From Flavobacteriaceae bacterium PS02337 (GTDB lineage: Bacteria; Bacteroidota; Bacteroidia; Flavobacteriales; Flavobacteriaceae), in NCBI GenBank assembly GCA_029959285.1, contig JASCOE010000007.1, forward strand, positions 124,001-188,000: 64,000 nucleotides of DNA. The letters run 5' to 3'. This document shows, one piece after another, positions 7,203 to 24,397 of this stretch. The notes below the pieces were generated by a model. That model was given only the letters and a program-made list of their open reading frames with translations, had not been told where the DNA came from and did not search any database. Within the stretch, counting starts at the first letter, position 1; each line of letters starts with the position of its first letter. Both the position numbers and the translations under genes were made by a program.

Positions 7203-8540
7203 TTAATACTCGTCTATCAAACAAATTTCAAAAGTTGTTTTTTCGTTTTTAGTATTGTGAAGAATATAACCGCCGTGTGCTTCAATAATATTTTTAGATA
7301 AAGTCAAACCTATGCCCGTGCCTTCGTTTCTCGTAGTAAAAAACGGAAGAAAAATTTTGTCTTCAATTTCTTTTTCGATTCCTTTTCCGTTGTCTGAAAT
7401 TTTTATAAAAACGCGATTATCTTTGGCTTCCGCCGAAATTGTAATTTGTTTAGAAGTTATATTTTCTAATGCGTTTATAGAATTTGTCATTAAGTTAATC
7501 AACACTTGTTCAATCTGTTGCTGATCTACATTTATAGCATAATTAAGGCTTATCAAATTCTCGATTTCAATATTTTCTTTTCGAAACATCGGATTCATGA
7601 TTTGAAGGCAGTTTTGAATTAAATCCTTCAAATCAATTTTTTCTTTTTTTGGAGAAGGCAACATCGCTAATTTTCGATAACCTTCAATAAATTTTTGCAA
7701 ATGATCGCTTCGTCTGAGCATCGTTTGCACACTGTGTTTTATGTCTTCTAAATCTTCTGTAGAAAGCGAATCTTGTTCTACCAAATCTTCTAAATTTTGA
7801 CAAATAGAGCGAATTGGCGTAATCGAATTTAAAAGTTCATGCGAAATGACTTTCATCAAATTGATCCAAGCGTCTTTCTCTTTTTTCTCGACCACATTCT
7901 GAATTGAATCTAGCAAAACAATAAAATAATCTTGTTCAAAAATCTCAGTTCGAGAAGCTTGCAAAACAAATGTCTGCTTATTTTGTTCGTTGATGCTAAT
8001 TTCTATTGAAGTTTTAATTTCATGAAAATCATCTTTTTCAATAATTTCACACAAAGACGGCAACTGATTTTTAAGATATTTCCATTTCGAAACTTTTGGA
8101 ACATTAAAATGGCGCGAAAAATAATCATTCATCAAAAAAATATTCCAATCTGTTTCTTGTTTTTGAAGAATCACCACTCCAGTTTCGATATTATTTAAAA
8201 TAGAACGATAAATTATATCTTTAGAAATCTGTTCGTTATGTTTATTTTTCAACGTTTCATACAATTGAAATAAATCATCGTAACTTTTATTGAATTTATG
8301 TTTAGAAAAATCCGAAGTAAAATCATTCTGTAATATCGAAGAAATCGTTTTGTTGTAAATTAAAACCAGATTTCGAACATAAAAATACATTTCTCTGCCT
8401 AGTAGAAAAACCATGCAAAGCCCAAATATTCCTGTAAAAAGCAAACCAATTTTAAAGAAATAAATCGACAATTCAATTCCGATTACGATAAAAATTAATC
8501 GCAAAAAAATGAGTTTATAAGTTTGTAACGTTTTAAACAT
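7203..8540 (-). CDS. Membrane sensor histidine kinase of a sigma-54 two-component pair
   Basis: 445 residues. Two hydrophobic helices lie within the first 60 residues with almost no periplasmic loop. A PAS-like region (about 110-220) follows, then a HisKA domain with the phospho-acceptor His in VISHELLNSITPIRSI, and an HATPase domain with NLMTNSINAL, DNGKGIEKE and GTGIGLTLSKNI. The architecture is NtrB/AtoS-like. It starts 1 base after the stop of the sigma-54 activator gene (transcribed right to left), so the two are one operon. With so little extracellular sequence it probably senses a membrane or cytoplasmic signal. The divergent ABC exporter is the likely regulatory target. Confidence 0.88.
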   Translation of the reverse strand: MFKTLQTYKLIFLRLIFIVIGIELSIYFFKIGLLFTGIFGLCMVFLLGREMYFYVRNLVLIYNKTISSILQNDFTSDFSKHKFNKSYDDLFQLYETLKNKHNEQISKDIIYRSILNNIETGVVILQKQETDWNIFLMNDYFSRHFNVPKVSKWKYLKNQLPSLCEIIEKDDFHEIKTSIEISINEQNKQTFVLQASRTEIFEQDYFIVLLDSIQNVVEKKEKDAWINLMKVISHELLNSITPIRSICQNLEDLVEQDSLSTEDLEDIKHSVQTMLRRSDHLQKFIEGYRKLAMLPSPKKEKIDLKDLIQNCLQIMNPMFRKENIEIENLISLNYAINVDQQQIEQVLINLMTNSINALENITSKQITISAEAKDNRVFIKISDNGKGIEKEIEDKIFLPFFTTRNEGTGIGLTLSKNIIEAHGGYILHNTKNEKTTFEICLIDEY

Positions 8541-8541
8541 A

Positions 8542-9891
8542 TTAACTGATATTGATATTGTATTTTTCTAAACGTCTATACAAAGCGCCTCTCGATAAGC
8601 CGAGTTCTGTCGCGGTTTTACTGATATTATTATTATTTTTTAGAAGTGCTTTTTCGACCGTAATTTTTTCTACAGAAGAAAGCTGAATATCATCAATATT
8701 TTCTTCGTAAGGCGTAATAATTTCAAGATCTAAATCGGAAACTGTGATGATATTATTTTCGCAAAGAATAACAGCGCGTTCAATCTTGTTTTCCATTTCG
8801 CGAATATTTCCGTTCCAAGCGTGTTTTTCGATTTGTTCGAGTACTTTTTTGTCAAATGTAATTTCGTCTCGACCGTATTTTTCAATCATTTTATCTAAAA
8901 GATATTCGGCAAGCGGAATCTTATCTTCGTTTCTTTCTCTTAAAGGCGGCAAAACAATTTCCATCGTATTGATGCGATAATATAAATCTTCACGGAAGTT
9001 TTTGTCCGCTACTTCCAATTTCAAATTTAAATTGGTTGCTGTAACAATTCTAACATTTAAAGGTCTTGCTTTTGTTTCTCCCAATCTCGTTATGGTTTTG
9101 GTTTGAATGACCTGCAATAATTTCGATTGCAAATGAAGTGGCACATTTCCGATTTCATCTAAAAAAATGGTTCCGTTTTGCGCCATTTCAAAACGTCCTG
9201 GCGTATCTAGTTTTGCATCTGTAAAAGCGCCTTTTGCATAACCGAACAATTCACTTTCGAAAATATTCGAATTTAAAGAACCTAAATCCACAGCAATAAA
9301 CGGCTGATTTTTTCTCTCCGATTGCAAATGAATATGATGTGCCAAAACAAATTTTCCTGTTCCATTTTCGCCTAAAATCAAAACATTGGCATCGGTTTTG
9401 GCTACTTTATCGGCTAATGAATAGGCTTTTTTTATAATTTCTGAATTTCCTGTAAAGAAGTCATTTCTAATTGCGACTTCTTTTATATTTTTTTGATCTT
9501 TTCTCGATTTATCTACGGCTTGTTTTACCGATTCTAATAGTTTTATATTTTCCCAAGGTTTCAAAATATAATCAAAAGCGCCTGATTTTAAGCCTTCAAC
9601 AGCGGTTTCTACTTTTCCGAAAGCCGTCATTAAAATCACTACAGTTTTTGGCGAAAGCGTTTTTATTTCTTTCAATAAATACAAACCTTCTCTCCCATCT
9701 TCAAAACCAATTCTGTAATTCATGTCCAACAAAACGACATCGATTGTGTTTTTCGACAATAATTCGACAATATTTTTTGGATTATTGAGCGTATAAATAT
9801 TTTCAAAATACTTTTTCAGATAGACTTTTGATGCAAAAAGGATGTCTTCCTGATCGTCGATGATTAAAATTGAAGCGTTGGTCTTTTTCAT
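8542..9891 (-). CDS. Sigma-54-dependent response regulator (NtrC family)
   Basis: 449 residues: receiver domain (1-125, acidic IIDDQED, phospho-Asp in VVLLDMNY near residue 56, Lys in ILKPW), AAA+ domain, and a C-terminal Fis-type helix-turn-helix (NISKTATELGLSRGALYRRLEK). Walker A reads GENGTGKF and Walker B is TIFLDEIGN. The sigma-54 contact loop reads GAFTDA rather than GAFTGA, a variant I recall as frequent in Bacteroidota but a departure from the proteobacterial rule. It should bind enhancer-like sites and activate RNA polymerase with sigma-54. A triple TGGAC/GTCCA repeat 14 bases upstream of its start codon is a strong candidate site for itself and the divergent exporter. Confidence 0.9.
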   Translation of the reverse strand: MKKTNASILIIDDQEDILFASKVYLKKYFENIYTLNNPKNIVELLSKNTIDVVLLDMNYRIGFEDGREGLYLLKEIKTLSPKTVVILMTAFGKVETAVEGLKSGAFDYILKPWENIKLLESVKQAVDKSRKDQKNIKEVAIRNDFFTGNSEIIKKAYSLADKVAKTDANVLILGENGTGKFVLAHHIHLQSERKNQPFIAVDLGSLNSNIFESELFGYAKGAFTDAKLDTPGRFEMAQNGTIFLDEIGNVPLHLQSKLLQVIQTKTITRLGETKARPLNVRIVTATNLNLKLEVADKNFREDLYYRINTMEIVLPPLRERNEDKIPLAEYLLDKMIEKYGRDEITFDKKVLEQIEKHAWNGNIREMENKIERAVILCENNIITVSDLDLEIITPYEENIDDIQLSSVEKITVEKALLKNNNNISKTATELGLSRGALYRRLEKYNINIS

Positions 9892-10175: not shown

Positions 10176-10886
10176 ATGATTAGCATTACAAAACTTTCGA
10201 AAGTATTTAGAACTGAGGAATTAGAGACAAAGGCATTAAGCGAAATTTCACTAACTATTAATCAAGGCGATTTTGTCTCTATTATGGGACCGTCTGGAAG
10301 CGGAAAATCGACTTTATTAAACATTATCGGACTTTTAGACAGCGCTTCAGACGGAAGTTATGAACTTCTTGGTCAGGAAATGATTGGTTTAAAAGAAAAA
10401 GCAAAATCGCAAGCAAGAAAAGAAAACATCGGATTCATCTTTCAGAACTTCAATTTAATTGATGAATTGTCGGTTTTTGATAATATCGAATTGCCTTTAA
10501 TCTACAGTAATGTTCCTTCTGCCGAAAGAAAATCACGAGTAAATGAGATTGCAAGAATACTGGGAATTGCGCACAGATTGAAACATTTTCCGCAGCAACT
10601 TTCGGGCGGACAACAACAGCGTGTTGCCGTTGCAAGAGCTTTAATTAATAATCCGAAAATTATTCTGGCCGATGAGCCAACAGGAAATCTGGATAGTAAA
10701 AGCGGAAATGAAGTCATGGAACTTTTAACCGATCTTCATGCCAGCGGTTCGACAATTCTAATGGTAACGCACTCAGATTATGACGCTTCTTTTTCGCAAA
10801 AAACGATTTTGATGAAAGACGGAATGATTCTTTCGGAAAAGTTGAATCATAGAAATGTTGATGTTTTGGTAAACGCTAAAAACTAG
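10176..10886 (+). CDS. ABC transporter ATP-binding protein, MacB/LolD type
   Basis: 236 residues with a complete nucleotide-binding domain: Walker [10 protein letters not shown] at 38-46, Q-loop [22 protein letters not shown], signature [15 protein letters not shown] at 142, Walker [14 protein letters not shown] at 162, and a switch His in MVTHSD. The insertion after the Q-loop is typical of the MacB/LolD/FtsE class, which power extracytoplasmic FtsX-like permeases. It heads a four-gene operon with three permease genes separated by 1-3 bases. It lies opposite a sigma-54 two-component system, which probably controls it. Confidence 0.93.
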
Positions 10887-10889
10887 TTT

Positions 10890-13325
10890 ATGCTAAAGAA
10901 TTGGATCAATATATTTATATATCATATCAAAAATAACAAATTCTTTACGGCTCTAAATATTTTGAGTTTGAGTATTGGAATTGCAGGATTGATTTTTGCC
11001 ATTTTGTACTTGAATGACGAAAAAAGCTATAACGCATGGAATCCTAACAAGGACGTTGTTTTTCAATCTATAAGCCAAGTTAGCGCAGATAATTTTTGGT
11101 CATCAAACGTTTCTTCATTTGAAGATTATTTTAAAACCGATTTTAAGGAAATTGAAAGTTATTGTTATCTAGACCTTTGGTATGCAGACAAAATTCTCTC
11201 ATCTGCAAATAAAAAAGGAATTTTTAAAGTTATTGATGCTCAAAAAACTTTTTTTGAAATGTTTCCTTTTGAGTTTATAAAAGGAAATCTAAAAACAGCA
11301 TTACGAAACAATACTTGTATTGTGATTTCAAAAAAGACTGCCTTAAATCTGTTCGGAACTGTTGATGTACTTGACAAAACAATTACTTTTTACGATAAAA
11401 AATTAATTATTACAGGAGTTTACACCGTTCCTGGAAAATCATCATTGGCACCAGAAGCTATTGTAAATCTTATAGATGAACGTACGCCAACAGAAAAAGA
11501 TAACTGGGGAAATTTTAATTATGGATTACTGATTAAATTGAAAAATCCAGCCGACGCTGATAAAGTGAAGGCTAAAATGGAAAATCTCCTTTTTCAAAAT
11601 CGAACTGTAAAATGGGCAAAACAAGAAGGATTGACAATTAAAGAATGGCAGAAGCAAAATGGAGTTGAGAAAATGAAAATATTTCTCGAACCATTAAAAG
11701 ATGCTAGATTACATTCGATTGTTGATGGTTATGCAGAAGGCAAAGGAAATTATCAGTTTTTAATGATTATGATGTCTTTATCTGTTTTAATTCTCATCTT
11801 GTCGTTATTCAACTACATTAATTCGGCCACCGCAAATGCTATAAAAAGAGCTAAAGAAGTTGGAGTTAGAAAAATTGCTGGTGCAACCAAAAAAGATATC
11901 GTTTTACAATTTCTATTTGAAACTGCTATTATTACCTCTTTTGCTATTCTTTTATCTTTGGTAATAGTAGAATTATCTTTGCCTTTTTACAATAATTTTC
12001 TAGAAAAAAACCTGAGTCTTTCTGGTCAATATTTTTTCTATGAATTAATTATCATTTTCATTATTACGGTTGTAATTGCGGGAATCTTTCCAGCGATTTA
12101 CATTTCAAATTTTGAAACTTTAAAGGTATTAAAAGGAAATTTCAGCAGAAGCAAAAGCGGTATTTGGCTGCGAAATGGAATATTAGTTTTACAATTTGCC
12201 ATCGCATTTTTCTTTATTATAGGATCTTATATTGTTTATGAGCAAGTTCAATTTTTGAATAAAAGAGATTTAGGTTTTAAAGGTGATCAGGTTTTAGAAA
12301 TAAGATATAAAAAACCTTTTTTTGATAATAAAGATCCAAAAGCTAATGAATTTTTATATAAAAGATATGAAACATTAAGGCAAGAAATTTTAAAAATCAA
12401 AGGCGTTTCTCAAGTAAGTACTGGTACATTTTCATTTGCTGAAGGAAGCAGTACTTCATCTACTTTTAGTTATAAAGACAATCAAATTCAAGGTCAAAAT
12501 ATGGCTGTTGATTTTGGTATGTTAGAAATGCTTAAAATTAAATTAACTGATGGACGCTATCTTACAAGTCAAATTGCTTCGGACAGTATTGATGCTGCAT
12601 TGGTAAACGAAACGGCATTAAAACTAATGAAGGAAAAAAATCCGATTGGTAAAATTCTGCAGTGGAACGAGCATAAACTAAAAATTGTTGGAATTGTAAA
12701 AGATTTTAATATCTGGGGACCAAAAGCAAACATCCCGCCAATGATATTTTTTCATCTCAAAACCGTCGATTGGATGAATTATAATGTCAATCAGCTTTTT
12801 GTAAAAGTAAAACCAGACGACATACAAAATACGATTTCTGAACTTGAAAAGTTTTGGCAAAAAAATATCGATTCAGAATATCCTTTTCATTATGATTTTG
12901 TAGATAAAGCTTACGCGAGAAATTACAAAGAATATGTGAATCAGAAAAACCTCTTTTCATTACTAAATGTAGTTGTTATTCTAATTGCTCTTTTCGGACT
13001 TTTCGCTTTGGCATCCTACTCCATTCAAAGCAGAATGAAAGAAATTGCTATTCGCAAAACACTTGGTGCTGAAACTCATGTTTTATTAAAAGAACTCACT
13101 AAACAATATATTCTTTTTTGCGTGGCAGGTTTTCTAATTTCTATATTTCCAGCATATTATCTGCTAAATAAATGGCTTGAAGATTTTGTCTTCAGAATTA
13201 CTATTTCTGCTTATCCATTTGCAATCGGATTCATAGCATTATTGTCTTTAACCTTAATTGTAGTCTTGTCAAGAACTTATCAAGCTACAAAAGTCGATGT
13301 TTTACAATACCTTAAATGCGAATAA
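10890..13325 (+). CDS. FtsX/MacB-like ABC permease, first of three tandem paralogues
   Basis: 811 residues. An N-terminal helix (residues about 18-42) is followed by a periplasmic MacB_PCD-type domain and three helices of the first FtsX domain, with the cytoplasmic motif NAIKRAKEVGVRKIAGATKKDIV. A further helix (about 425) and a second periplasmic domain follow, then a second FtsX domain with SRMKEIAIRKTLGAETHVLLKEL. This is the two-FtsX, eight-helix architecture. It shares the block RDLGFKGDQVLE and many others with the next two genes, so the three arose by tandem duplication. No membrane-fusion protein or TolC gene is adjacent. The substrate is unknown; peptides, lipids or antibiotics are possible from the class. 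Confidence 0.88.
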   Translation: MLKNWINIFIYHIKNNKFFTALNILSLSIGIAGLIFAILYLNDEKSYNAWNPNKDVVFQSISQVSADNFWSSNVSSFEDYFKTDFKEIESYCYLDLWYADKILSSANKKGIFKVIDAQKTFFEMFPFEFIKGNLKTALRNNTCIVISKKTALNLFGTVDVLDKTITFYDKKLIITGVYTVPGKSSLAPEAIVNLIDERTPTEKDNWGNFNYGLLIKLKNPADADKVKAKMENLLFQNRTVKWAKQEGLTIKEWQKQNGVEKMKIFLEPLKDARLHSIVDGYAEGKGNYQFLMIMMSLSVLILILSLFNYINSATANAIKRAKEVGVRKIAGATKKDIVLQFLFETAIITSFAILLSLVIVELSLPFYNNFLEKNLSLSGQYFFYELIIIFIITVVIAGIFPAIYISNFETLKVLKGNFSRSKSGIWLRNGILVLQFAIAFFFIIGSYIVYEQVQFLNKRDLGFKGDQVLEIRYKKPFFDNKDPKANEFLYKRYETLRQEILKIKGVSQVSTGTFSFAEGSSTSSTFSYKDNQIQGQNMAVDFGMLEMLKIKLTDGRYLTSQIASDSIDAALVNETALKLMKEKNPIGKILQWNEHKLKIVGIVKDFNIWGPKANIPPMIFFHLKTVDWMNYNVNQLFVKVKPDDIQNTISELEKFWQKNIDSEYPFHYDFVDKAYARNYKEYVNQKNLFSLLNVVVILIALFGLFALASYSIQSRMKEIAIRKTLGAETHVLLKELTKQYILFCVAGFLISIFPAYYLLNKWLEDFVFRITISAYPFAIGFIALLSLTLIVVLSRTYQATKVDVLQYLKCE

Positions 13326-13326
13326 T

Positions 13327-15738
13327 ATGTTTAAAAACTATATAAATACTTTCATCTATCAAATCAAAAACAACAAACTGTTTTCGATTCTGAATATACT
13401 AGGTTTATCCATAGGTATGGCAACCTTAATTTTTGCCATTCTCTATTGGAACGACGAGCATTCTTACGACCAATGGAATCCCGAAAAAGGCAAAATTTAT
13501 TCTGTTCTAAATGATATTGGACAAAAAAATGTCTGGACATCAAATCCTGCAACAACTGGACCTTTGCTGCAATCTGTTTCTTCAGATTTAGAAAGTTATT
13601 GTTATTTCTATCCTGATTATGCCAAAGATGTGATTATATATAACGGCAAAAAGGAAATGACCAGCAAAATCTTTACCGCGCAAAGTAATTTTTTCTCTTT
13701 TTTTCCTTTTCACTTTATTCATGGAAATGGAAAAACAGCGCTTCAAGATCGAAATAGTATTGCTTTATCAGACGAAACTGCTGTTCGTTTATTTGGAAAT
13801 GAAAATCCGTTAGAAAAATTGGTAAAGTATGACGGTCAGATTTTTACCGTTCGCGGAGTTTATAAAATTACCGAAAAATCATCGGTAATGCCAAATGCCG
13901 TTACAACTATTATTGAAGATGATTTAAAAAGAACAAAAGACCAATGGACTTATCATTACGGACTTATTTTAAAATTTAAGAACCCGAATGCTTCTTCAAG
14001 AATAATACAAACTTTGGATAAACTTTTTTTTGAAAATTGTACTAAACTATACGCCAAACAAGAAGGTTTGACCGTTTCTGAATTTATAAAAAAATATGGA
14101 GAACCTGTAAAATCAAGTTTACTTCCTTTACCTGAAGCGCGATTGTATAAAGGAAATTTTCCTTTTCCAGAAGAAGGCGGAAAACTTCAATATATCCTAA
14201 TTTTAATGGGATTATCCATTTTGATTTTGCTGCTTTCTATTGTAAATTATGTAAATCTAGCAACCGCAAATGCAATAAAAAGAGCGAAAGAAATTGGTGT
14301 TAGAAAAATTACTGGTGCAACAAAAAGACAAATTGTAACGCAATTTATTTTTGAAACCGCTTTGACCACAATTTTTTCAGTTTTAATCGCTTTGGTAATT
14401 GTCGAAATTTCACTGCCTGTTTACAATTCTTTTCTTGATAAAGATTTAATTCTAATAGGTTCTCAATTTTATATTCAACTGATTTTAATTACTTTAATTG
14501 TTATAATTGTTTCTGGAGTTTTGCCTGCTGTTTACGTTTCTAATTTTGAAGCTTTAAAAGTTTTAAAAGGCAATTTCTCAAGAAGTAAAAAAGGAATTTG
14601 GCTTAGAAACGGAATGCTGGTTTTACAATTTGGCATCGCTGCTTTTTTCATCATCGGATCTTTTATCGTCTATAAACAAGTCAACTTTATGGCAGAGAAA
14701 GATTTAGGTTTTAAAGGCGCACAAGTTTTAGATATTACTTTTAAAGCCAAAAAAGATAAAAAACAATATGAGCGATACAAATTAATTAAACAAGAAGCAG
14801 GCAAAATAAAAGGTGTCGAAGGAGTTTCAACTGCATTGTTTGCAATGGGCTCGATGGAAAATTCTTGGTCAAGTGCGAGTTATAAAGACAATAAACCTTT
14901 TTTGATACAAGAAATGGAAATGGATTTTGAAATGCTTGATATGCTTGATATTAAAGTTTTGAAAGGAAGGAAATTGAATTCGGCTTATGCTTCTGATACC
15001 ATTTCATCTGTATTGTTAAATGAAGAAGCGGTAAAATTAATCCCAGAAAAAGACCCGCTAAACAAAACGATTTACTGGAGAGATCAAAAAGTAAAAGTGG
15101 TCGGGGTTGTAAAAGATTTTAATTACTTCGGATTAGAAAGCCGAATTTCTCCGATGATCTTTTTTTATGTTACAAAAATTGATGGTGTACGAGACGATAT
15201 TCGTCACATTTTCATTAAAGTATCGCCAGATAATTTGCAAGAAACTATAAAAGGAATCAATAAATTCTGGATAGAAAAAGTAGATTCAGAATATCCTTTC
15301 GAATATAATTTTGTAGATAAAAACTACGCAAGAACTTTCAAGAAATATGAAAATCAGAGAGATTTATTTGCTTTGCTAAATATAATCGTAATCTTAATTG
15401 CTGTTTTCGGATTATTCTCTTTGGCTTCTTTTTCTATGGAAAGAAGACTTCGTGAAATTGCAATTAGAAAAACACTTGGCGCAGATACAAACATTCTATT
15501 AAAAGAATTATCAAAACAATATGTGGTTTTCTGCATCATCGGTTTCTTAATCGGAATTATTCCAGCTTATTTGTTATTAGAAAAATGGCTTGAAAACTTT
15601 GCTTTTCGCATTTCAATTCCGCCTTTACCCTTTTTTCTCGCTTTTATTTCGCTGTTATTTTTAACGCTGGCGATTGTTTTGGCAAAAGCTTATCAGGTAA
15701 CAAAAGTCGACGTTTTAAAATATTTAAAATACGAATAA
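13327..15738 (+). CDS. FtsX/MacB-like ABC permease, second tandem paralogue
   Basis: About 803 residues from the ATG at 13327, chosen because it aligns with the starts of its paralogues (MFKNYINTFIYQIKNNKLFSILN) and lies 1 base after the previous stop. An upstream in-frame codon at 13297 would overlap the previous gene. The architecture is the same as its neighbours: NAIKRAKEIGVRKITGATKRQIV in the first FtsX domain and RRLREIAIRKTLGADTNILLKEL in the second. Periplasmic parts differ more than the membrane parts, as expected if the paralogues diverged in substrate or partner contact. Confidence 0.88.
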   Translation: MFKNYINTFIYQIKNNKLFSILNILGLSIGMATLIFAILYWNDEHSYDQWNPEKGKIYSVLNDIGQKNVWTSNPATTGPLLQSVSSDLESYCYFYPDYAKDVIIYNGKKEMTSKIFTAQSNFFSFFPFHFIHGNGKTALQDRNSIALSDETAVRLFGNENPLEKLVKYDGQIFTVRGVYKITEKSSVMPNAVTTIIEDDLKRTKDQWTYHYGLILKFKNPNASSRIIQTLDKLFFENCTKLYAKQEGLTVSEFIKKYGEPVKSSLLPLPEARLYKGNFPFPEEGGKLQYILILMGLSILILLLSIVNYVNLATANAIKRAKEIGVRKITGATKRQIVTQFIFETALTTIFSVLIALVIVEISLPVYNSFLDKDLILIGSQFYIQLILITLIVIIVSGVLPAVYVSNFEALKVLKGNFSRSKKGIWLRNGMLVLQFGIAAFFIIGSFIVYKQVNFMAEKDLGFKGAQVLDITFKAKKDKKQYERYKLIKQEAGKIKGVEGVSTALFAMGSMENSWSSASYKDNKPFLIQEMEMDFEMLDMLDIKVLKGRKLNSAYASDTISSVLLNEEAVKLIPEKDPLNKTIYWRDQKVKVVGVVKDFNYFGLESRISPMIFFYVTKIDGVRDDIRHIFIKVSPDNLQETIKGINKFWIEKVDSEYPFEYNFVDKNYARTFKKYENQRDLFALLNIIVILIAVFGLFSLASFSMERRLREIAIRKTLGADTNILLKELSKQYVVFCIIGFLIGIIPAYLLLEKWLENFAFRISIPPLPFFLAFISLLFLTLAIVLAKAYQVTKVDVLKYLKYE

Positions 15739-15739
15739 G

Positions 15740-18157
15740 ATGCTAAGAAACTGGATCAATATATTTATATATCAAATAAAGAGCAGTAAACTTTTTACTG
15801 CTCTCAATGTTCTCGGATTATCAATAGGAATTTCAGGTTTGATTTTCGCGCTTTTGTATTGGAATGACGAACAAAGTTACAACGCCTGGAATCCTGAAAA
15901 AGAAAATGTATACCAGGTTTTAGTTCAACTAAGCGATATGGACGCCATGTCAGATTGTGCCTTATTTCTGAAACCTGCTTTAGACCAAGATCCAAATGTT
16001 AAATCTATACTATATGCTGATAGCTGGTATCAAAAGGATAAAATTATTTACAAAGGAAAAAAGGAGTTTGTAGATAAAATTATCAATGTCGAACAAAATT
16101 TCTTTTCTTTTTTTCCTTTCGAAATTATTAAGGGTGATGCAATTTCAGCTATAAAATATGATTCCAGCATTGCTATTTCAGACATTACGGCTAAAAGGAT
16201 TTTTGGAAATGAAAACCCCATCGGAAAACAAATAAAATGCTTTGACCAGCTGTTTTCTGTAAGGGCCGTGTACCATATTCCCGGAAATTCTTCGATTGCG
16301 CCAAATGTCATCATCAATAAAATGAAACAATATACAACTTCTGGATTGACGGGTCCGTTTGTTTTAAAGTTGTTATTAAAACTAAAAGATCCGTCAAAAG
16401 TTGAACTTACAAGACAGAAACTCGAAAGAATTTACAACCACGATTTTATTGCGATAATTGCCAAAGAAGCAGGTTTTACAGTCGAAGTTATGACTAAAAA
16501 AGTGGGGCATTTTACAGTTATTCTTGAACCTTTATCAAAAGCTAGATTACATTCGATAATAGATGGTTATCCTGAAACACGAGGAAATTATCAGTTTTTA
16601 ATAATCATGATGGGGCTGTCTCTTTTGATTCTCGTTTTGTCGATTGTTAATTACATCAATCTTGCAACTGCAAATGCTGTAAAGCGTGCGAAAGAAGTTG
16701 GAGTACGTAAAATTTCAGGTGCATCAAAAGGCGATATTGTTAGTCAGTTTCTCTTTGAAACAGTTTTAATCACGACTTTTTCTATTTTACTAGCGTTAGT
16801 AATTGTAGAGTTGACTTTGCCCTATTACAACAACTTTTTAAACAAAAACATTGTACTTCTTGCCAGTCAGTTTTACATACAATTGATATTTATTTTTATC
16901 ATTACAATTTTGGCAGCAGGATTATTTCCAGCCATTTATATATCCAATTTTGAAACTTTTAAAGTTTTGAAAGGAAATTTAGAAAGAAGCAAAAATGGTA
17001 TCTGGTTGCGCAACGGAATGCTTATTTTTCAGTTTGCTATTGCTGCATTTTTTATTATTGGCTCAAATATCGTGTACCAGCAAATTAAATTTTTACAGAA
17101 TAAAGATCTGGGTTTTAAGGGGGATCAGGTAATTTCGGTTTCTTTAAATTTCCCATCGGTTGATTATCAGGGTAAAAATGCAGACCAAAACATTTACAAC
17201 AAATATGACGTCATAAAACAGCAACTCAGCAAAATTAAAGGCATCGAAGAAATCTCCACGGGTCTTATTGCTTTTGACGGTTCAGACAATTCTTTAGCAG
17301 GAGTTTTATACAATGATGAACTTTTTAAACAACGCGTTATTCCTTTAGATTTTGGCATGTTCGAAATGTTGAACATCAAAATAATTAAGGGAAGAAATTT
17401 TGACAAAAAACTGGCTTCAGATACTATAAATTCTGTGATCATAAATGAAAGCGCCTTAAAATTAATGAAGCTTAAAGATCCACTTGGAAAGGAACTTGTA
17501 ATTCGGGAACACAAATTAAAAATAATTGGTATTAGTCAAGATTTCAACTTATTAAGCCCTGAATTAAAGGTTCCGCCAATTGCTTTTTACAATATTAAAA
17601 TGTTTGGAATGTCACAAAACATTAACAAAGTTTATGCAAAACTAAAACGGGATGATATGGAAAATACGATTGCCAATATCGAAAAATTATGGTCTAAAGT
17701 CAATCCCGAATATCCATTTCAATACGACTTTGTAGACAAGCAATATGCAAGAACCTACGAAGCTTACGTAAAACAAAAGAGTCTTTTTTCGCTGCTAAAT
17801 GTAATCGTGATTATTATCGCTTTGTTTGGATTGTTTGCATTGGCATCTTATTCGATTCAGAGAAGAATGAAAGAAATTGCTATTCGAAAAACTTTGGGAG
17901 CAGAAACCAATATTTTATTGAAAGAATTATCAAAACAATATGTTTTCTATTGTGCAATTGGATTTATAATTGCCATTTTTCCGGCTTATTTTTTATTGCA
18001 AAAATGGCTTAACAATTTCGCTTTTAGAATCGAAATTCCAGTATTGCCTTTTGTACTTTCTTTTTTCTTTCTTTTGTTTTTAACTTTAATTATTGTTTTA
18101 ACAAAAGCCTATCAAGCTACAAAAGTCGACGTTTTAAAATATTTAAAATACGAATAA
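15740..18157 (+). CDS. FtsX/MacB-like ABC permease, third tandem paralogue
   Basis: 805 residues, starting 1 base after the second permease. The N-terminus is nearly the same as that of the first paralogue (MLRNWINIFIYQIKSSKLFTALNVLGLSIGISG). It carries NAVKRAKEVGVRKISGASKGDIV and RRMKEIAIRKTLGAETNILLKEL in the two FtsX domains and the shared KDLGFKGDQVIS. It is the last gene of the exporter operon and is followed by a clear terminator. Three full-length permeases with one ATPase imply alternative homo- or heterodimers powered by the same ATPase. Confidence 0.88.
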   Translation: MLRNWINIFIYQIKSSKLFTALNVLGLSIGISGLIFALLYWNDEQSYNAWNPEKENVYQVLVQLSDMDAMSDCALFLKPALDQDPNVKSILYADSWYQKDKIIYKGKKEFVDKIINVEQNFFSFFPFEIIKGDAISAIKYDSSIAISDITAKRIFGNENPIGKQIKCFDQLFSVRAVYHIPGNSSIAPNVIINKMKQYTTSGLTGPFVLKLLLKLKDPSKVELTRQKLERIYNHDFIAIIAKEAGFTVEVMTKKVGHFTVILEPLSKARLHSIIDGYPETRGNYQFLIIMMGLSLLILVLSIVNYINLATANAVKRAKEVGVRKISGASKGDIVSQFLFETVLITTFSILLALVIVELTLPYYNNFLNKNIVLLASQFYIQLIFIFIITILAAGLFPAIYISNFETFKVLKGNLERSKNGIWLRNGMLIFQFAIAAFFIIGSNIVYQQIKFLQNKDLGFKGDQVISVSLNFPSVDYQGKNADQNIYNKYDVIKQQLSKIKGIEEISTGLIAFDGSDNSLAGVLYNDELFKQRVIPLDFGMFEMLNIKIIKGRNFDKKLASDTINSVIINESALKLMKLKDPLGKELVIREHKLKIIGISQDFNLLSPELKVPPIAFYNIKMFGMSQNINKVYAKLKRDDMENTIANIEKLWSKVNPEYPFQYDFVDKQYARTYEAYVKQKSLFSLLNVIVIIIALFGLFALASYSIQRRMKEIAIRKTLGAETNILLKELSKQYVFYCAIGFIIAIFPAYFLLQKWLNNFAFRIEIPVLPFVLSFFFLLFLTLIIVLTKAYQATKVDVLKYLKYE

Positions 18158-18493: not shown

Positions 18494-19924
18494 TTACTTC
18501 TTTGTAAATCCTTTTCTAGTCATTTCGCCCCAGCCTTTAGTTCCCATAATTTTTTCTTTATAACCAATTAAAGCCGAATACACTGTAAGTGGATGAAAAT
18601 AAATTGGTTCTATAAACGCGGCCATTAAAAGCTTAAAGAAATCGATTTGTTTTGGATATTTATGATAGGTTCTTTCTTCACTATATAGAGCAATAACCGA
18701 AAAGAAAACGGCGAAAGAATAGACAAACAAAAGCAATAAGAAAAAGAAGTGCCAGTTTAATAATCCGAAAATTATAAAAATGACGGTTATTACAAGTCCA
18801 ACAAATTCTATTCCCGGAGCTAGAAATTCAAACAATGTCCAATACGGAACACTCAGCATTCCTAAAAGTTTATATTTTGGATTTAGGAACATTTTTTTGT
18901 GAAAACTAAGTGTTTCAATTGTTCCTCGCATCCAGCGGCTTCTTTGTTTTTTAAATATCGTAAAATCTTCTGGAGCTTCTGTCCAACAAAGCGGATCTGG
19001 AATGTAACTTACCGCGTAAGGTAATTTGTTTTCGAGCATATAACGACGCATTCTTACAATCAATTCCATGTCTTCTCCGACTGTTTTCGTGCTGTAACCG
19101 CCAGACAAAATCGCAATTTCTTTATCGAAAGCACCAAAAGCACCGCTGATTAATAAAAGTCCGTCTAGCCTTCCCCACGCCATTCTTCCTAAAAGAAAAG
19201 CTCTCAAATATTCTAAAACTTGAATTCTTGGCAGCATTACATCAGGAATATTTACCTCAACCAAACGACCATTTTTAATCACACATTGGTTGGCAATTCT
19301 AACTACTCCGCCCGTTGCAATAATTCTTTTTCCTTGAGATTCTAAAAATGGTTTTGCCAATTTTAAAAGCGAATCTTTATCAAGAATACAATCGACATCA
19401 ATGCAAACCACATACGGATTTTGTGCAATATTTAATCCAACATTTAAAGCATCAGCTTTACCTCCATTTTCTTTGTCTACCACTATTAATTTTTTAAAAG
19501 CGGCGTTTCTAGAAGTGTAAATTCCTTTTATTTTTTTGGTTTCAATTTTAGAATGAATATCAAAATCTGTCAAAACAAGATCGTAGGTTTTGGTTAAGAT
19601 TTCCATCGAATTGTCTTTACTTCCGTCATTTACAACAATAACCTGATAATTATTATAATTTAATGAAAGTAAAGATTTTACATTTTCTTCAATCGTTAAA
19701 CCTTCATTATATGCGGGCGCAATCAAAGAAAGTTTTGGAGCAAATTCGCTTGTCAGAAGTACTTCATAATCTACAAAGCTGTTTTTCTTTAGATAACTTC
19801 TTAATTCTTTTTGCGAAAGGTAAGCCAATATCAAATAAGACGACATGATAAGTATTGCATACCCTAATATAAGAAGTATGTACACATCTAAAAGCCAAGT
19901 TATTTCAGTATTAAAAAAAGTCAT
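18494..19924 (-). CDS. Processive family-2 glycosyltransferase (membrane polysaccharide synthase)
   Basis: 476 residues. N-terminal helix 11-35, GT-A domain 60-340, then three or more helices (about 350-425). Catalytic features of processive GT2 enzymes are all present: VVND (Asp100), DVD at 176-178, GED at 283-285 as the base, and QRSRW at 327-331. The layout resembles PgaC, NfrB and YaiP, which extrude a beta-linked polymer while synthesising it. It is the last gene of a tight operon with a TPR/beta-barrel outer-membrane protein. The sugar is unknown. Confidence 0.88.
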   Translation of the reverse strand: MTFFNTEITWLLDVYILLILGYAILIMSSYLILAYLSQKELRSYLKKNSFVDYEVLLTSEFAPKLSLIAPAYNEGLTIEENVKSLLSLNYNNYQVIVVNDGSKDNSMEILTKTYDLVLTDFDIHSKIETKKIKGIYTSRNAAFKKLIVVDKENGGKADALNVGLNIAQNPYVVCIDVDCILDKDSLLKLAKPFLESQGKRIIATGGVVRIANQCVIKNGRLVEVNIPDVMLPRIQVLEYLRAFLLGRMAWGRLDGLLLISGAFGAFDKEIAILSGGYSTKTVGEDMELIVRMRRYMLENKLPYAVSYIPDPLCWTEAPEDFTIFKKQRSRWMRGTIETLSFHKKMFLNPKYKLLGMLSVPYWTLFEFLAPGIEFVGLVITVIFIIFGLLNWHFFFLLLLFVYSFAVFFSVIALYSEERTYHKYPKQIDFFKLLMAAFIEPIYFHPLTVYSALIGYKEKIMGTKGWGEMTRKGFTKK

Positions 19925-19935
19925 TCTATTCTTAA

Positions 19936-20757
19936 TTATGCCGTTAATGCCTGTAAGACACTTTGCGCTTCATATTTGATAATTGTGTTCGGAGCATTTG
20001 CAGTCAATTCTGCTACAAAAGGAACTTTTTGTGTCAATTTCAGCTCTTTTATAAGTTTCAACCCCAGAGAAACTACTGTTGTATTTTGTGATTCTAATAA
20101 AAGTTCAACACCTTTTGTATCTCCAATATCGTGCTTTTTGAAAGCGCTGATAATATTTACCTGCGTCCATTCGTCAATAATATCAGCATGTTCCGTTAAA
20201 TGCACAATTCCTTTAGTTCCTTCCAATTTTATTCCGGCATTTATCGCTGTAATTTTCAAAGTTTTGTTTCGTGCTTTCGCGCAAGCGATAATTTGGTCGA
20301 AAGCTTCCTTGATATTAAATTCGGATAATTCAGTGATTCCTTTGCATTTAATTTCCCATTTAAAGTTTTTAAGCTTTTTAAATGAATCTTTTATTAAACC
20401 TGAATCTTTATAAAATTGTTCCAGTTTCTGTGCATAAACGCCTTCATAATTTTTATGAAGATTGATAATCGTTTCTATTAAAACTGCTCTGAAAAAACTG
20501 GTATCAAAAAGTACCATGAAGTTTTTATCATTTTTAATTTCAGCATAAAGTAAATCTTCAAAAATTATGGAAGACATTACTTTTTCAATCAAAACATTGT
20601 ATTCAACTCTGAGTTTTTCTCTTTTAATGTTTCTGTTTCTACTTGCAACAATTATTAAATAAAAAATAAATGAAGCAGATACAAACAAATAAATTGAAAA
20701 CGTCAGAAAAGGAATTTCCCATTGCCCGTTTTTATATAGTTCCCAAAGGTTTTCCAT
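19936..20757 (-). CDS. Membrane-anchored HEAT-like repeat protein of the polysaccharide operon
   Basis: 273 residues. One N-terminal transmembrane helix (about 15-38) is followed by a basic stretch (RNRNIKREKLR) and an all-helical domain. The last 120 residues look like degenerate HEAT repeats: paired amphipathic helices such as KGVELLLESQNTTVVSLGLKLIKEL and NTIIKYEAQSVLQAL. It sits between the barrel gene (1-base gap) and the synthase gene (11-base gap). The helix-anchored scaffold may link synthase and regulator on the cytoplasmic side; that is inference. I do not recognise a named family. Confidence 0.72.
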   Translation of the reverse strand: MENLWELYKNGQWEIPFLTFSIYLFVSASFIFYLIIVASRNRNIKREKLRVEYNVLIEKVMSSIIFEDLLYAEIKNDKNFMVLFDTSFFRAVLIETIINLHKNYEGVYAQKLEQFYKDSGLIKDSFKKLKNFKWEIKCKGITELSEFNIKEAFDQIIACAKARNKTLKITAINAGIKLEGTKGIVHLTEHADIIDEWTQVNIISAFKKHDIGDTKGVELLLESQNTTVVSLGLKLIKELKLTQKVPFVAELTANAPNTIIKYEAQSVLQALTA

Positions 20758-20758
20758 A

Positions 20759-21973
20759 TTAAAAACGTTTCGTTACAATTAGCTGTACATTAAATCTATT
20801 TCTATATTGTCCGGGAATATATTCTTCGTCTTCATAAAGAAAAATGGGACGAACAAAAAAAGATTCACCAATTCGATGTTGGTATTGAATTCCGATTCTA
20901 TACGCTTTTAAAGGCTGTGTAAAATTGTTATATAGATATAAATAAGGCACATTTCCATATTGAAGTTCTAATCTGATAATTCGTTCTTTTTCTTCATTTG
21001 TTCTTTGAATACTTAAAACATGAGAAAATAATTCGTTTGAAGTATCGTAATACGGTCTGTATGCAAAAGAATAAATTCCTGGATTATACGACAATTGTCC
21101 TGTTACCAAAGTAATATCGTCGGTATCAAAATGCATAAATCGTCCTCCTATAGAATATTCAAATTTTTTATAAGGTTTAAAATAATATTCTAATCCAGCT
21201 TTTGCGACAGGAAAAATTGTTTCTCCTGTTGAAATTCCTGCATTTGCGTACAAGTAACTTTTATTTGAAAAGGTTTGATAAAAATCGGTTTCGAATAGCA
21301 TTTGCGTTTCATTGCTTACGTTTCCGATGTTTGCTCTTCCAACAATAGCAGATTTGCTGAATTTATGTGAATATTCTGCATATCCATAATGAAATGGAGA
21401 TTGCCCCGGATCTGAAGTTGAGATATTCAAATAAGAAACAGAAACGGCATTTTTTGCCTTACGCCCAATTAATGTTCGAATTCCTTTAAATGCTTGTGTG
21501 CTATTATCTGCAAAAGAGGCTTTTTCTATTAATTCTAAAGCTTCAGAATCACGATTTAGTTTTTCTAGACAAGTTGCTTTTATCTTTATAATTTCTACCG
21601 ATTTTGGATCAATAACTAAATATTTGTCGCAGTAGAAATTACATTTTTCATAATTCTCAGACCAGAAATAAACATTGATAATAGCTTGCAACGCTTCTTG
21701 ATTTGGATTAACTCGGTCTGTTAATGGAGACAAAACTTTTATTGCTGTTTTATAATCTTTTTTCCAACTATAAATTCGTCCTGTATACGTTTGAATATCT
21801 TCGTCTTGCGGATATTTGGCACGCAAAGGATCCATCAACGTCAAAGCTTTTTCGTAGTTTCCTTTTTCTACTTCACGTTTTGCATTGGCTAAAGTTTCTT
21901 CAACATTAATTTCCTGACCAATTGCGATAGAGGAAATAAATAAAAGGCAGATAAAATAATATATGGATTTCAT
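20759..21973 (-). CDS. YaiO-family outer-membrane beta-barrel protein with N-terminal TPRs
   Basis: 404 residues. A signal peptide ends near IAIGQ (residue 20). Three or four TPR-like helix pairs follow (AKREVEKGNYEKALTLMDPLRAKYP is a clear one), and from about residue 170 there is a beta-barrel rich in alternating aromatic strands, ending in VQLIVTKRF with the C-terminal Phe typical of outer-membrane proteins. This TPR-plus-barrel plan is the one used by polysaccharide export porins such as PgaA. Its ATG overlaps the receiver gene stop (TAATG), so the two are translationally coupled. It probably carries the polymer made by the downstream synthase across the outer membrane. Confidence 0.83.
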   Translation of the reverse strand: MKSIYYFICLLFISSIAIGQEINVEETLANAKREVEKGNYEKALTLMDPLRAKYPQDEDIQTYTGRIYSWKKDYKTAIKVLSPLTDRVNPNQEALQAIINVYFWSENYEKCNFYCDKYLVIDPKSVEIIKIKATCLEKLNRDSEALELIEKASFADNSTQAFKGIRTLIGRKAKNAVSVSYLNISTSDPGQSPFHYGYAEYSHKFSKSAIVGRANIGNVSNETQMLFETDFYQTFSNKSYLYANAGISTGETIFPVAKAGLEYYFKPYKKFEYSIGGRFMHFDTDDITLVTGQLSYNPGIYSFAYRPYYDTSNELFSHVLSIQRTNEEKERIIRLELQYGNVPYLYLYNNFTQPLKAYRIGIQYQHRIGESFFVRPIFLYEDEEYIPGQYRNRFNVQLIVTKRF

Positions 21974-22338
21974 TATGCTCTTGTTTTTAGCAGTTTATTG
22001 ATTCTCACTAAGAGCACAGCCGGACTGACTGGTTTTGCAATAAACTCATTGGCGCCAATATCAAACGAATCCAATTCTGTTTGTTCTACACCAGAAGAAG
22101 TCAATATAATAACTGGAATATCAGATTGAAGCGTTTCGCGAACATATTGCGTAATTTCCATTCCGCTTATGCCGGGCATATTAATATCAGTAAGAATCAG
22201 GCTGTAACTATTATTTTTTATAGCATCGAGTGCGTCTTTACCATCAGAAAATTGGTCAACACTAAATCCTTTAGATTCTAAGAAAAAAGATAATGATTTG
22301 CGTAGGATGTCATTATCTTCAGCTAAAATTATTCTCAT
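21973..22338 (-). CDS. Stand-alone response-regulator receiver protein
   Basis: 121 residues, a single CheY-like domain with no output domain. The acidic pair is in IILAEDNDIL, the phospho-Asp in LILTDINMPG, the conserved Thr/Ser in ILTSSG, and the Lys in FIAKPVSP. It is the first gene of the barrel/HEAT/synthase operon and overlaps the barrel gene by one base. The hybrid kinase encoded 76 bases upstream is a likely phosphodonor. It probably controls synthase activity by protein contact rather than by binding DNA. Confidence 0.9.
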   Translation of the reverse strand: MRIILAEDNDILRKSLSFFLESKGFSVDQFSDGKDALDAIKNNSYSLILTDINMPGISGMEITQYVRETLQSDIPVIILTSSGVEQTELDSFDIGANEFIAKPVSPAVLLVRINKLLKTRA

Positions 22339-22414
22339 TTTTTAAAATTTTAAACTTGGGGCAAAATTTAATTATAACGTCAGAATTGTAAAGCTATTGC
22401 TTATTTCTCTTTTA

Positions 22415-24397
22415 TCATAGTTCTTTTAAAACTTTAACTACCTCAGTAATTCCGCAGTGTAAAATATTTATTTTATCTAAAATTTCTGTAGAAAATTGAT
22501 TCTTTGAAGCTTCTTCTTCAATAATAGATGCACAATTGCTCAAATCTTCCAACATAAAAATATCTAAACTAGATTTCATATTATGTGCCAATCGTTTTAC
22601 CGCGTCGTGATCATCATTTTTAAAAGCGGCTTCTAATTCTGCAACTTGATTTGGAATTTTATCTAAGAAAAGGTGAATCATTTCTTTTTTAAATTCTTCG
22701 TCTCCGCAAGCCATTTCATCCAAAAAAGAAAAATCTATTCTTCTTTTTCTTTCCGCTCCAACTTCTTCTCTCATTGCGGTTTTTATAACTTTTAAAAGAA
22801 CAGATTGCTTAAATGGTTTTGGCACATAACCATTCATTCCCACTTTATAGCAGCGCTCTTGTTCTCCAACTAAAGAATGCGCTGTCATGGCAATAATTGG
22901 TATCGAAGAATTCATTTCATTACGAATATATTCTGTGGTTTGGTAGCCATCTTTAATTGGCATTTGAAGATCCATTAAAACCAAATCATATTTATTTTGA
23001 GATAGAAGTTCAATTCCTTCATCTCCATTCGAAGCAACATCCAATTCAAAACCAAAATTATGAATGACACTTTTTACTAATTTCTGATTTAAAACATTAT
23101 CCTCGCAAAGTAATATCTTCAAACTTCCCAAATCATTTTTAGATGCAGATGATACTACCGTTTTTGAAGCATTAGCTTTTTTATATTTAAGGAAAAAGAA
23201 AAATTCAGAACCACGATTTAGTTCACTTTTTACGTGAATTTCTCCTTTATGCAATTCAACCAATTGTTTTACAATATTTAGCCCAAGACCAGTTCCGCCA
23301 AATGTTCTTGTGGTACTTTCTTCACCTTGCGTAAAACGTTCAAAAATAGTTTTAAGTTTATTTTTAGGAATTCCTATTCCGGTGTCTTTAACAGAAAATC
23401 GAAGCGTATAATTATCATTATTTTCCTCAATTTTCTTTACAGAAACCGTTACTTCTCCTTCTTGCGTAAATTTCAGAGAATTTCCAACAAGATTAACTAA
23501 TATCTGATTTAATCTTCCTTGATCGCCAATAACATTATCTGGCATATCGGCATCTAAATAAAGATTAAATTCTACATCTTTCTGAACCTTAACTTTCAAT
23601 AAGCTATAAACATGTTTAAGAGTTCTCTTTAAATTAAAAGGTTCTGATTCGATAGTTAAATTTCCAGATTCAATTTTAGAAAGATCTAGAATATCATTAA
23701 TAATAATAAGCAGATTCTCACCAGCAATCTGCACGCTATCAATATATTCCTGCTGAACCTCATCTAATTCTGTCTGATCTAAAAGATCTGTAAAACCAAT
23801 AATAGCATTTAATGGTGTTCTAATTTCATGACTCATATTAGCCAAGAAATTATCTTTTGCTAAAACGGCACGTTCGGCAATTTTTTTCTGATAATCTAAT
23901 TCTATATTTTTTGTTCCGATTTCCAATTGCGCCATAACGTGTTTGGCAACTATCGAAAGTGCATTTCGCTGGTTATCATTAAGTTCTTTCACCACATGAT
24001 CAACAGCACACAAGGTTCCGATATTAAATCCGTCTGGAGTTGTAATCGGAACTCCAGCATAAAATCTTACGTTAAATCCGCCCGTTACATTTGGATCGTC
24101 TTTAAATCGTTCGCTTAAATGCGTATCGTTGATTTCTACAATTTTTGTATCTAAAATCGTGTAGTTACAAAATGAAATTTCACGCGGAACCTCAGATACT
24201 CCTACTCCAATTTCAGACTTAAACCATTGTCTGTTTTCATCAATAAAAGAAATATGTGCAATGGGAACACCACAGATATAAGAAACCAATTTGGTTGCAT
24301 CATCAAAAGCATGATCTGGAAGTGTATCTAGTATATTATAACGTTTTAAAGCTGCTAAACGTTGTAGTTCATTTTCTGGAATGGGGTAATCTCTCAT
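22415..24397 (-). CDS. Hybrid histidine kinase: GAF-HisKA-HATPase-REC-HPt
   Basis: 660 residues from the ATG at 24397, chosen because TATCTTTG, a perfect -7 box, lies 23 bases upstream inside the longer frame. There are no transmembrane helices. The N-terminal segment RLAALKRYNILDTLPDHAFDDATKL and a GAF domain match the cytoplasmic GAF sensors common in bacteria. The phospho-acceptor is in NMSHEIRTPLNAIIGF. The HATPase has NLVGNSLKF, DTGIGIPK and GTGLGLNI; the receiver has VLMDLQMP; and the HPt domain has RLAHNMKSSLDIF. All phosphorelay residues are present. It lies directly upstream of the receiver/barrel/synthase operon and probably feeds phosphate to that receiver. Confidence 0.9.
   Translation of the reverse strand: MRDYPIPENELQRLAALKRYNILDTLPDHAFDDATKLVSYICGVPIAHISFIDENRQWFKSEIGVGVSEVPREISFCNYTILDTKIVEINDTHLSERFKDDPNVTGGFNVRFYAGVPITTPDGFNIGTLCAVDHVVKELNDNQRNALSIVAKHVMAQLEIGTKNIELDYQKKIAERAVLAKDNFLANMSHEIRTPLNAIIGFTDLLDQTELDEVQQEYIDSVQIAGENLLIIINDILDLSKIESGNLTIESEPFNLKRTLKHVYSLLKVKVQKDVEFNLYLDADMPDNVIGDQGRLNQILVNLVGNSLKFTQEGEVTVSVKKIEENNDNYTLRFSVKDTGIGIPKNKLKTIFERFTQGEESTTRTFGGTGLGLNIVKQLVELHKGEIHVKSELNRGSEFFFFLKYKKANASKTVVSSASKNDLGSLKILLCEDNVLNQKLVKSVIHNFGFELDVASNGDEGIELLSQNKYDLVLMDLQMPIKDGYQTTEYIRNEMNSSIPIIAMTAHSLVGEQERCYKVGMNGYVPKPFKQSVLLKVIKTAMREEVGAERKRRIDFSFLDEMACGDEEFKKEMIHLFLDKIPNQVAELEAAFKNDDHDAVKRLAHNMKSSLDIFMLEDLSNCASIIEEEASKNQFSTEILDKINILHCGITEVVKVLKEL

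Follow-up and report, generated by a model that had tools for sequence, protein, structure and literature searches.

Putative phosphorelay control of a YaiO/GT2 polysaccharide secretion operon through a receiver and a HEAT-like protein in Flavobacteriaceae

The minus strand of the 64,000-nucleotide stretch of Flavobacteriaceae bacterium PS02337 analysed here (the window; G000:C54:124001-188000, within a genome of 5.7 Mb) carries five genes running in one direction, which encode a hybrid histidine kinase, a stand-alone receiver (REC), a TPR/YaiO barrel, a HEAT-like protein and a glycosyltransferase of family GT2. They probably constitute a phosphorelay-controlled, synthase-dependent polysaccharide secretion system, in which the receiver, by way of a cytosolic HEAT adaptor, would switch the polymerase; synteny and the co-occurrence with YaiO are the basis of this reading. 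The window unit is a trimmed form of an operon that is widespread in Bacteroidota. A sequence-only reading of this DNA had assigned identities and positions to all five open reading frames (ORFs), and these were confirmed with exact coordinates by the ORFs and by matches to Pfam and NCBIfam:

22415..24397, minus strand: hybrid histidine kinase (ATG start) with the Pfam domains GAF, HisKA, HATPase_c, REC and HPt
22339..22414, minus strand: intergenic stretch of 76 bases between kinase and receiver, holding the block TAGCTTTA at 22389-22396
21973..22338, minus strand: stand-alone receiver (Pfam REC) without an output domain
20759..21973, minus strand: TPR/YaiO exporter (Pfam and NCBIfam YaiO; structural model)
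19936..20757, minus strand: HEAT-like membrane protein (transmembrane segment and predicted helical solenoid)
18494..19924, minus strand: membrane GT2 with processive-synthase motifs (Pfam GT2 and motifs)

The GT2 and HEAT genes are separated by 11 bases and the HEAT and YaiO genes by 1 base, the YaiO and receiver genes overlap by 1 base, and the longest gap, that of 76 bases, lies between receiver and kinase.

The idea that the window locus is a lone oddity was rejected by the synteny across its relatives. The HEAT-like protein was found in 40 of 149 genomes of the family and in 145 of 399 genomes of the genus. Forty Flavobacterium loci from 39 genomes were picked by hand from the 61 best rows of the genus, with the HEAT gene present by construction and 21 rows left out; the short loci L053-L080 were also left out of the analysis. 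The order kinase-REC-YaiO-HEAT-GT2 on one strand is kept in 32 of these 40 loci, with similar spacing and changing flanks, and in 24 of these 32 the gap between kinase and receiver measures 71-88 bases, with values from -4 to 96 in the remaining ones. Six of the other eight loci are without YaiO, one (L118) has a different order and one (L120) reads REC-HEAT-GT2-sulfatase-YaiO. At locus L107 the receiver was masked by an antisense ORF and was recovered by tblastn. Locus L112 (G348) is complete except for stop codons that interrupt the HEAT frame, through either decay or an assembly error; it was counted as a five-gene locus, since a HEAT frame of 213 residues remains.

A broader set of 80 named loci, the top-ranking ones among 587 sorted by GT2 similarity, gave the same picture of the core. 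The HEAT gene lies immediately 5' of the GT2 gene in 78 of them, and in 74 a receiver gene precedes HEAT or YaiO-HEAT by at most 350 bases. The two misses for HEAT are L187, a 5-kb contig on which no HEAT gene was seen, and L233, where HEAT overlaps GT2 by 61 bases and so exceeds the threshold; the receiver was left unscored in both. YaiO stands directly before HEAT in 21 of the 80 loci and anywhere in the locus in 69. The set includes Flavobacterium, Salegentibacter, Polaribacter, Chryseobacterium, Empedobacter, Sphingobacterium, Pedobacter, Mucilaginibacter, Chitinophaga, Niabella and Pontibacter as well as Bacteroidales bins, and the window order REC-YaiO-HEAT-GT2 is found again on separate branches of the GT2 tree, including Bacteroidales bins. 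Fusions of REC with HEAT or of HEAT with GT2 were absent from the loci scanned for them (L081-L120, L123-L162 and L163-L242, with L032-L051 outside the scan). Synteny and presence/absence thus bear out two earlier expectations, namely that the gene set would co-occur in other genomes and that it represents a unit for polymer synthesis and export that includes a receiver and a HEAT-like partner of its own.

The presence of HEAT and that of YaiO go closely together. Pfam YaiO was detected in 42 of the 149 family genomes, comprising all 40 genomes with HEAT and 2 of the 109 others, the latter as long, weak matches (hypergeometric 2.7e-34, uncorrected for kinship, nearly all genomes being of different genera). 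In a sample of 395 genomes of the phylum, all 53 genomes with a strong HEAT match (E <= 1e-15, a line set after seeing the list, below which some weaker matches such as G1008 and G1054 are true loci) also have YaiO. At HEAT E <= 0.001, 65 of 99 genomes have YaiO, and the majority of the 46 weak matches cover the profile only partly. YaiO itself was found in 93 of the 395 genomes and therefore serves other systems too.

The families of the two proteins at the ends of the proposed export route make polymer synthesis and export by GT2 and YaiO very likely. The GT2 of the window (Pfam E 2.6e-23) contains VNDGS (98), DVDC (176), GEDME (283) and QRSRW (327), that is, the D, DxD, ED and QxxRW motifs characteristic of a membrane-embedded processive GT2; hydrophobic segments lie close to its two termini. 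Across 17 aligned sequences the key motif residues vary little or not at all. Its top NCBIfam model is PgaC/IcaA, with 125.5 bits far under the cut-off of 422.3. The closest named GT2 found, with 97% identity, is from Flavobacterium potami, in a collection that may lack the record of the window itself, and the genus is accordingly taken to be Flavobacterium. The GT2s of L176 (Litoribacter populi) and L177 (Lacihabitans) are 78% and 75% identical to that of the window, and their position within the Flavobacterium-like clade despite belonging to other genera suggests gene transfer.

The barrel protein passes both YaiO models, with 124.3 bits against a cut-off of 23.9 for Pfam PF19413 and 165 against 32 for TIGR04390. 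In its structural model (pLDDT 89.6) an N-terminal signal-like helix is followed by TPR helices at 24-170 and by 14 β-strands, so that the parts expected of an exporter, periplasmic TPRs and an outer-membrane β-barrel, are present by sequence and model. A Foldseek search of 350,542 PDB chains placed Escherichia coli BcsC at ranks 1-2, PelBC at 6 and 4y25, which we take to be PgaA, at 20; the fold match with BcsC is weak (TM-score 0.40) and common porins rank in between these exporters. With VIA-align the FadL/TodX, Omp33, OmpG and CymA barrels obtained higher Z, and BcsC and PgaA were outside the top 50.

The HEAT-like protein has one clear N-terminal transmembrane segment (approximately residues 20-38) and a second, borderline one at 80-98. 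Directly after the former comes the basic stretch SRNRNIKREK, and according to the positive-inside rule the basic flank of a transmembrane segment faces the cytosol, so the rest of the protein is predicted to be cytosolic. The model (pLDDT 87.4) is a solenoid of helix pairs carried by a long N-terminal helix and has moderate structural matches to Armadillo and alphaRep designs. The window protein scores 15.3 with Pfam HEAT_2, below the cut-off of 27.7, which is passed by the relatives in L036 (47.3) and L040 (28.4) and is not passed by that in L044 (23.0). The profile of the HEAT family matches designed repeat proteins (9sah, 3.6e-19; alphaRep-7, 3.6e-12) at profile positions 253-346, of which the window protein covers only its last 29 residues; the alphaRep match lies mostly past the end of the protein and was rejected as proof of HEAT repeats in it. 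Several genomes of the family (L034, L036, L040 and similar) encode HEAT proteins of ~700-1000 residues, consisting of the same N-terminal part and a long extension. A second weak match of the HEAT profile in the window genome (G000 C2) proved to be a histidine kinase (HisKA_3/HATPase_c) and was discarded as a second system.

All phosphorylatable residues of a His-Asp-His-Asp relay can be assigned by motif. The kinase, predicted to be soluble as no hydrophobic segment exceeds the threshold used, provides HisKA His190, REC Asp476 and HPt His605, and the stand-alone receiver (Pfam E 5.3e-28) contributes the terminal phospho-acceptor Asp51 together with Asp8, Thr80 and Lys102; an aspartate occupies the Asp51 column in 83 of 90 aligned receiver sequences. 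From the gene order, phosphotransfer between the HPt domain of the kinase and the receiver is likely. The HPt domain is fused to the kinase in the window, and a separate Hpt-type gene directly precedes the receiver gene in L038, L044, L140 and L219, with the match in L140 (22.5 bits) being below the cut-off of 24.6. The receiver domain of the long kinase in L206 was rejected as a separate receiver because it sits inside the kinase. The block TAGCTTTA, read on the minus strand, recurs in 27 of 34 kinase-receiver gaps, that of the window included, and a looser CCCCAA stretch is found nearer the receiver in the same gap. The block, perhaps similar to the -7 promoter element of Bacteroidota, is a possible internal promoter or regulator binding site.

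Many relatives possess one more gene, for a membrane enzyme of the sulfatase superfamily (LtaS-like), between GT2 and YaiO. Counted anywhere in the locus and after removal of TPR cross-matches, this enzyme occurs in 44 of the 80 named loci and is fused to the GT2 in 18. It matches the structures of VP1736 and LtaS, and the LtaS and phosphoglycerol transferase I models score far below cut-off. Nine sequences share conserved GR(T/S)F and GDHR stretches, which we read as more in keeping with a phosphotransferase than with a classical sulfatase. The dedicated form of the enzyme (1154 bits or more) was found in 6 of 42 genomes and is absent from the window genome, where only generic members were detected (best 135.8 bits), although a generic LtaS-type member could still act in the window system. 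No deacetylase gene was seen among the ORFs and Pfam matches of the window operon. The earlier suggestion that the polymer may be unmodified agrees with the lack of a dedicated LtaS-like partner in the window genome but is incomplete; with the enzyme present in 44 of the 80 named loci, an unmodified polymer would be a feature of the sub-lineage of the window. In L195 a protein of ~388 residues (11438-12604), without any Pfam or NCBIfam match, is encoded between the LtaS-like gene and YaiO and may be a further subunit; L188, L192, L201 and L203 have genes akin to it by length and position only.

Within the Flavobacterium-like clade of the GT2 tree, loci without YaiO occupy some five positions (FastTree with midpoint root, without formal reconstruction). 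Seven of 42 genomes have such a locus and each of them has exactly one YaiO, elsewhere in the genome, adjoining a second HEAT match in six of the seven; more than one YaiO was found in 5 of the 35 other genomes, G492 with its two complete loci among them (Fisher 2.9e-5, uncorrected for kinship). In a second set of 15 genomes chosen for a locus without its own YaiO, all 15 have YaiO, one of them (L168) being the same genome as G396 of the seven and another (L177) having YaiO close by. The 406-residue gene after the YaiO-less locus L032 was considered as a diverged barrel and rejected, as it is DUF763. Genome G443 amounts to a natural experiment, since its only HEAT match lies in the YaiO-less locus (GT2 was not searched genome-wide) and its second locus (L153 3845-8650) contains the only YaiO of the genome and an intact LtaS-like gene of 788 residues, with no HEAT gene seen and the GT2 reduced to fragments (a C-terminal piece of 19 residues, 68%). 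The LtaS-like enzyme and YaiO have outlasted the synthase beside them and most likely work for the other locus, and this one genome supports a shared function and a barrel working in trans.

The working scheme that we propose starts with the cytosolic hybrid kinase, which would pass phosphate from His190 to Asp476, then to His605 of the HPt domain and finally to Asp51 of the stand-alone receiver. In one of its two states, phosphorylated or not, the receiver would dock onto the HEAT solenoid, which its membrane anchor would place in the cytosol next to the GT2, and HEAT would in turn switch, or assemble, the polymerase. The GT2 would polymerise an activated sugar while pushing the chain through the inner membrane, and the periplasmic TPRs would lead the chain to the 14-stranded YaiO barrel for release of the polymer.

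The relay could govern the activity of the synthase or its amount. The receiver has no DNA-binding part and for that reason most likely acts by contact. That HPt, REC, HEAT and GT2 are neighbours in many genera speaks for a relay that ends at the receiver and acts on HEAT-GT2. The balance tips slightly towards HEAT-mediated control of the enzyme itself over control of its expression. The converse, that the phosphorelay sets the amount of synthase, with the receiver as intermediate or phosphate sink for a distant transcription factor and HEAT as a constitutive scaffold of the GT2, seems rather unlikely. It would agree with HEAT being the constant partner of GT2, even in the four of those 78 loci (L191, L198, L218 and L228) without a receiver found just upstream, and the conserved element between kinase and receiver could be a promoter. 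However, a pure phosphate sink has no need to travel with the enzyme genes, whereas the receiver gene is found just upstream of HEAT or YaiO-HEAT in nearly all named loci, and in the window its stop overlaps the next start.

Conventional control of the synthase by cyclic di-GMP (c-di-GMP), with the phosphorelay as an accessory input, appears even more remote. The window genome encodes a single GGDEF protein (G000:C56:6629-7099; L122, L124) and the top-scoring curated synthase family, PgaC, is under c-di-GMP control, but no PilZ match was obtained in the whole genome or the operon products, as anticipated from the sequence, and the Pfam and NCBIfam matches listed for these products include no c-di-GMP-binding family; HEAT and the receiver occupy the place expected for a c-di-GMP partner. 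Scarcely more probable is a GT2 that makes a glycolipid or glycosylates a protein, next to a YaiO barrel of unrelated function in a merely historical gene order. Such a role would fit the absence of YaiO from loci that kept (kinase-)REC-HEAT-GT2, yet every genome tested with a YaiO-less locus has YaiO elsewhere, and the presence and absence of HEAT and YaiO are almost identical over the 149 genomes.

Elsewhere in the window, an ABC ATPase gene is followed by three tandem ORFs of ~810 residues (10176-18157), the first of which, the one scanned, is MacB_PCD/FtsX; genes for a kinase and for a sigma-54 response regulator (7203-9891) adjoin this cluster. A phytochrome-like kinase is encoded at 4227-5861, with PHY and HATPase_c in frame and a partial GAF match only.

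More generally, and tentatively, one widespread class of Bacteroidota polysaccharide synthases may be switched directly by a phosphorelay via REC-HEAT, in the role that c-di-GMP has in Pga and Bcs, with exporter and modifying enzyme as exchangeable modules; in strains with only kinase-REC-HEAT-GT2 at one locus, another locus perhaps lends its YaiO, and in a single case its LtaS-like enzyme as well. If this is true, Flavobacterium, Chryseobacterium, Sphingobacterium, Pedobacter, Polaribacter, Chitinophaga and other Bacteroidota share one surface-polymer machine with a control logic unlike that of the c-di-GMP systems of Proteobacteria, and they may offer a natural case of one exporter serving two synthases. 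It would also provide a concrete set of gene deletions for laboratory strains of Flavobacterium, and possibly a way to influence how members of Bacteroidota form biofilms or capsules. Among the papers listed by the literature searches, with most subscription papers and bioRxiv outside their scope, no description of the operon was found, and PMC7112194 (no match) and PMC12419801 (unrelated passages) gave no passage on it.

Among the known synthase-dependent systems, Pga resembles the window operon in combining a membrane GT2 with a TPR-barrel exporter, and PgaC/IcaA is the best curated family for the GT2. The scores fall far below the Pga cut-offs, not only for the GT2 but also for the barrel (17.3 against the PgaA cut-off of 366.65), the operon is without a gene for the deacetylase PgaB, and it has HEAT and REC where Pga has PgaC-PgaD, the pair that binds c-di-GMP. 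The likeness to Bcs lies in the TPR-barrel exporter, for which BcsC is the top, though weak, Foldseek match, and in the membrane phosphotransferase-like enzyme added by 44 of the 80 relatives, an addition reminiscent of BcsG. In contrast, the GT2 reaches 27.8 bits against the CelA/BcsA cut-off of 699.1 without a PilZ match, and the modelled barrel has 14 strands, while that of BcsC has 16.

The yaiO-yaiX-yaiP-yaiS locus of E. coli K-12 also unites a YaiO-family barrel with a GT2, and both barrels pass Pfam YaiO. The E. coli YaiO, however, is 257 residues long without a TPR match and shows no significant BLAST similarity to the window barrel (E 1.1), YaiP is 28% identical to the window GT2 over 223 residues and has no literal QxxRW, and the locus comprises acyltransferase (broken by IS2) and deacetylase genes but neither REC nor HEAT. 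The parallel with YaiO/YaiP drawn from the sequence alone thus stands for the barrel family and a remotely related GT2, but it is a loose one, as neither a homologous pair nor the same partners (YaiX, YaiS) were found. The additional enzyme of the relatives is similar to LtaS and the phosphoglycerol transferases, from which it differs by its coupling to a GT2, including the 18 fusions among the 80 loci. Synthase-dependent secretion is known, and in it the operon would work like Pga and Bcs; what would be new here is the putative control set of REC and HEAT.

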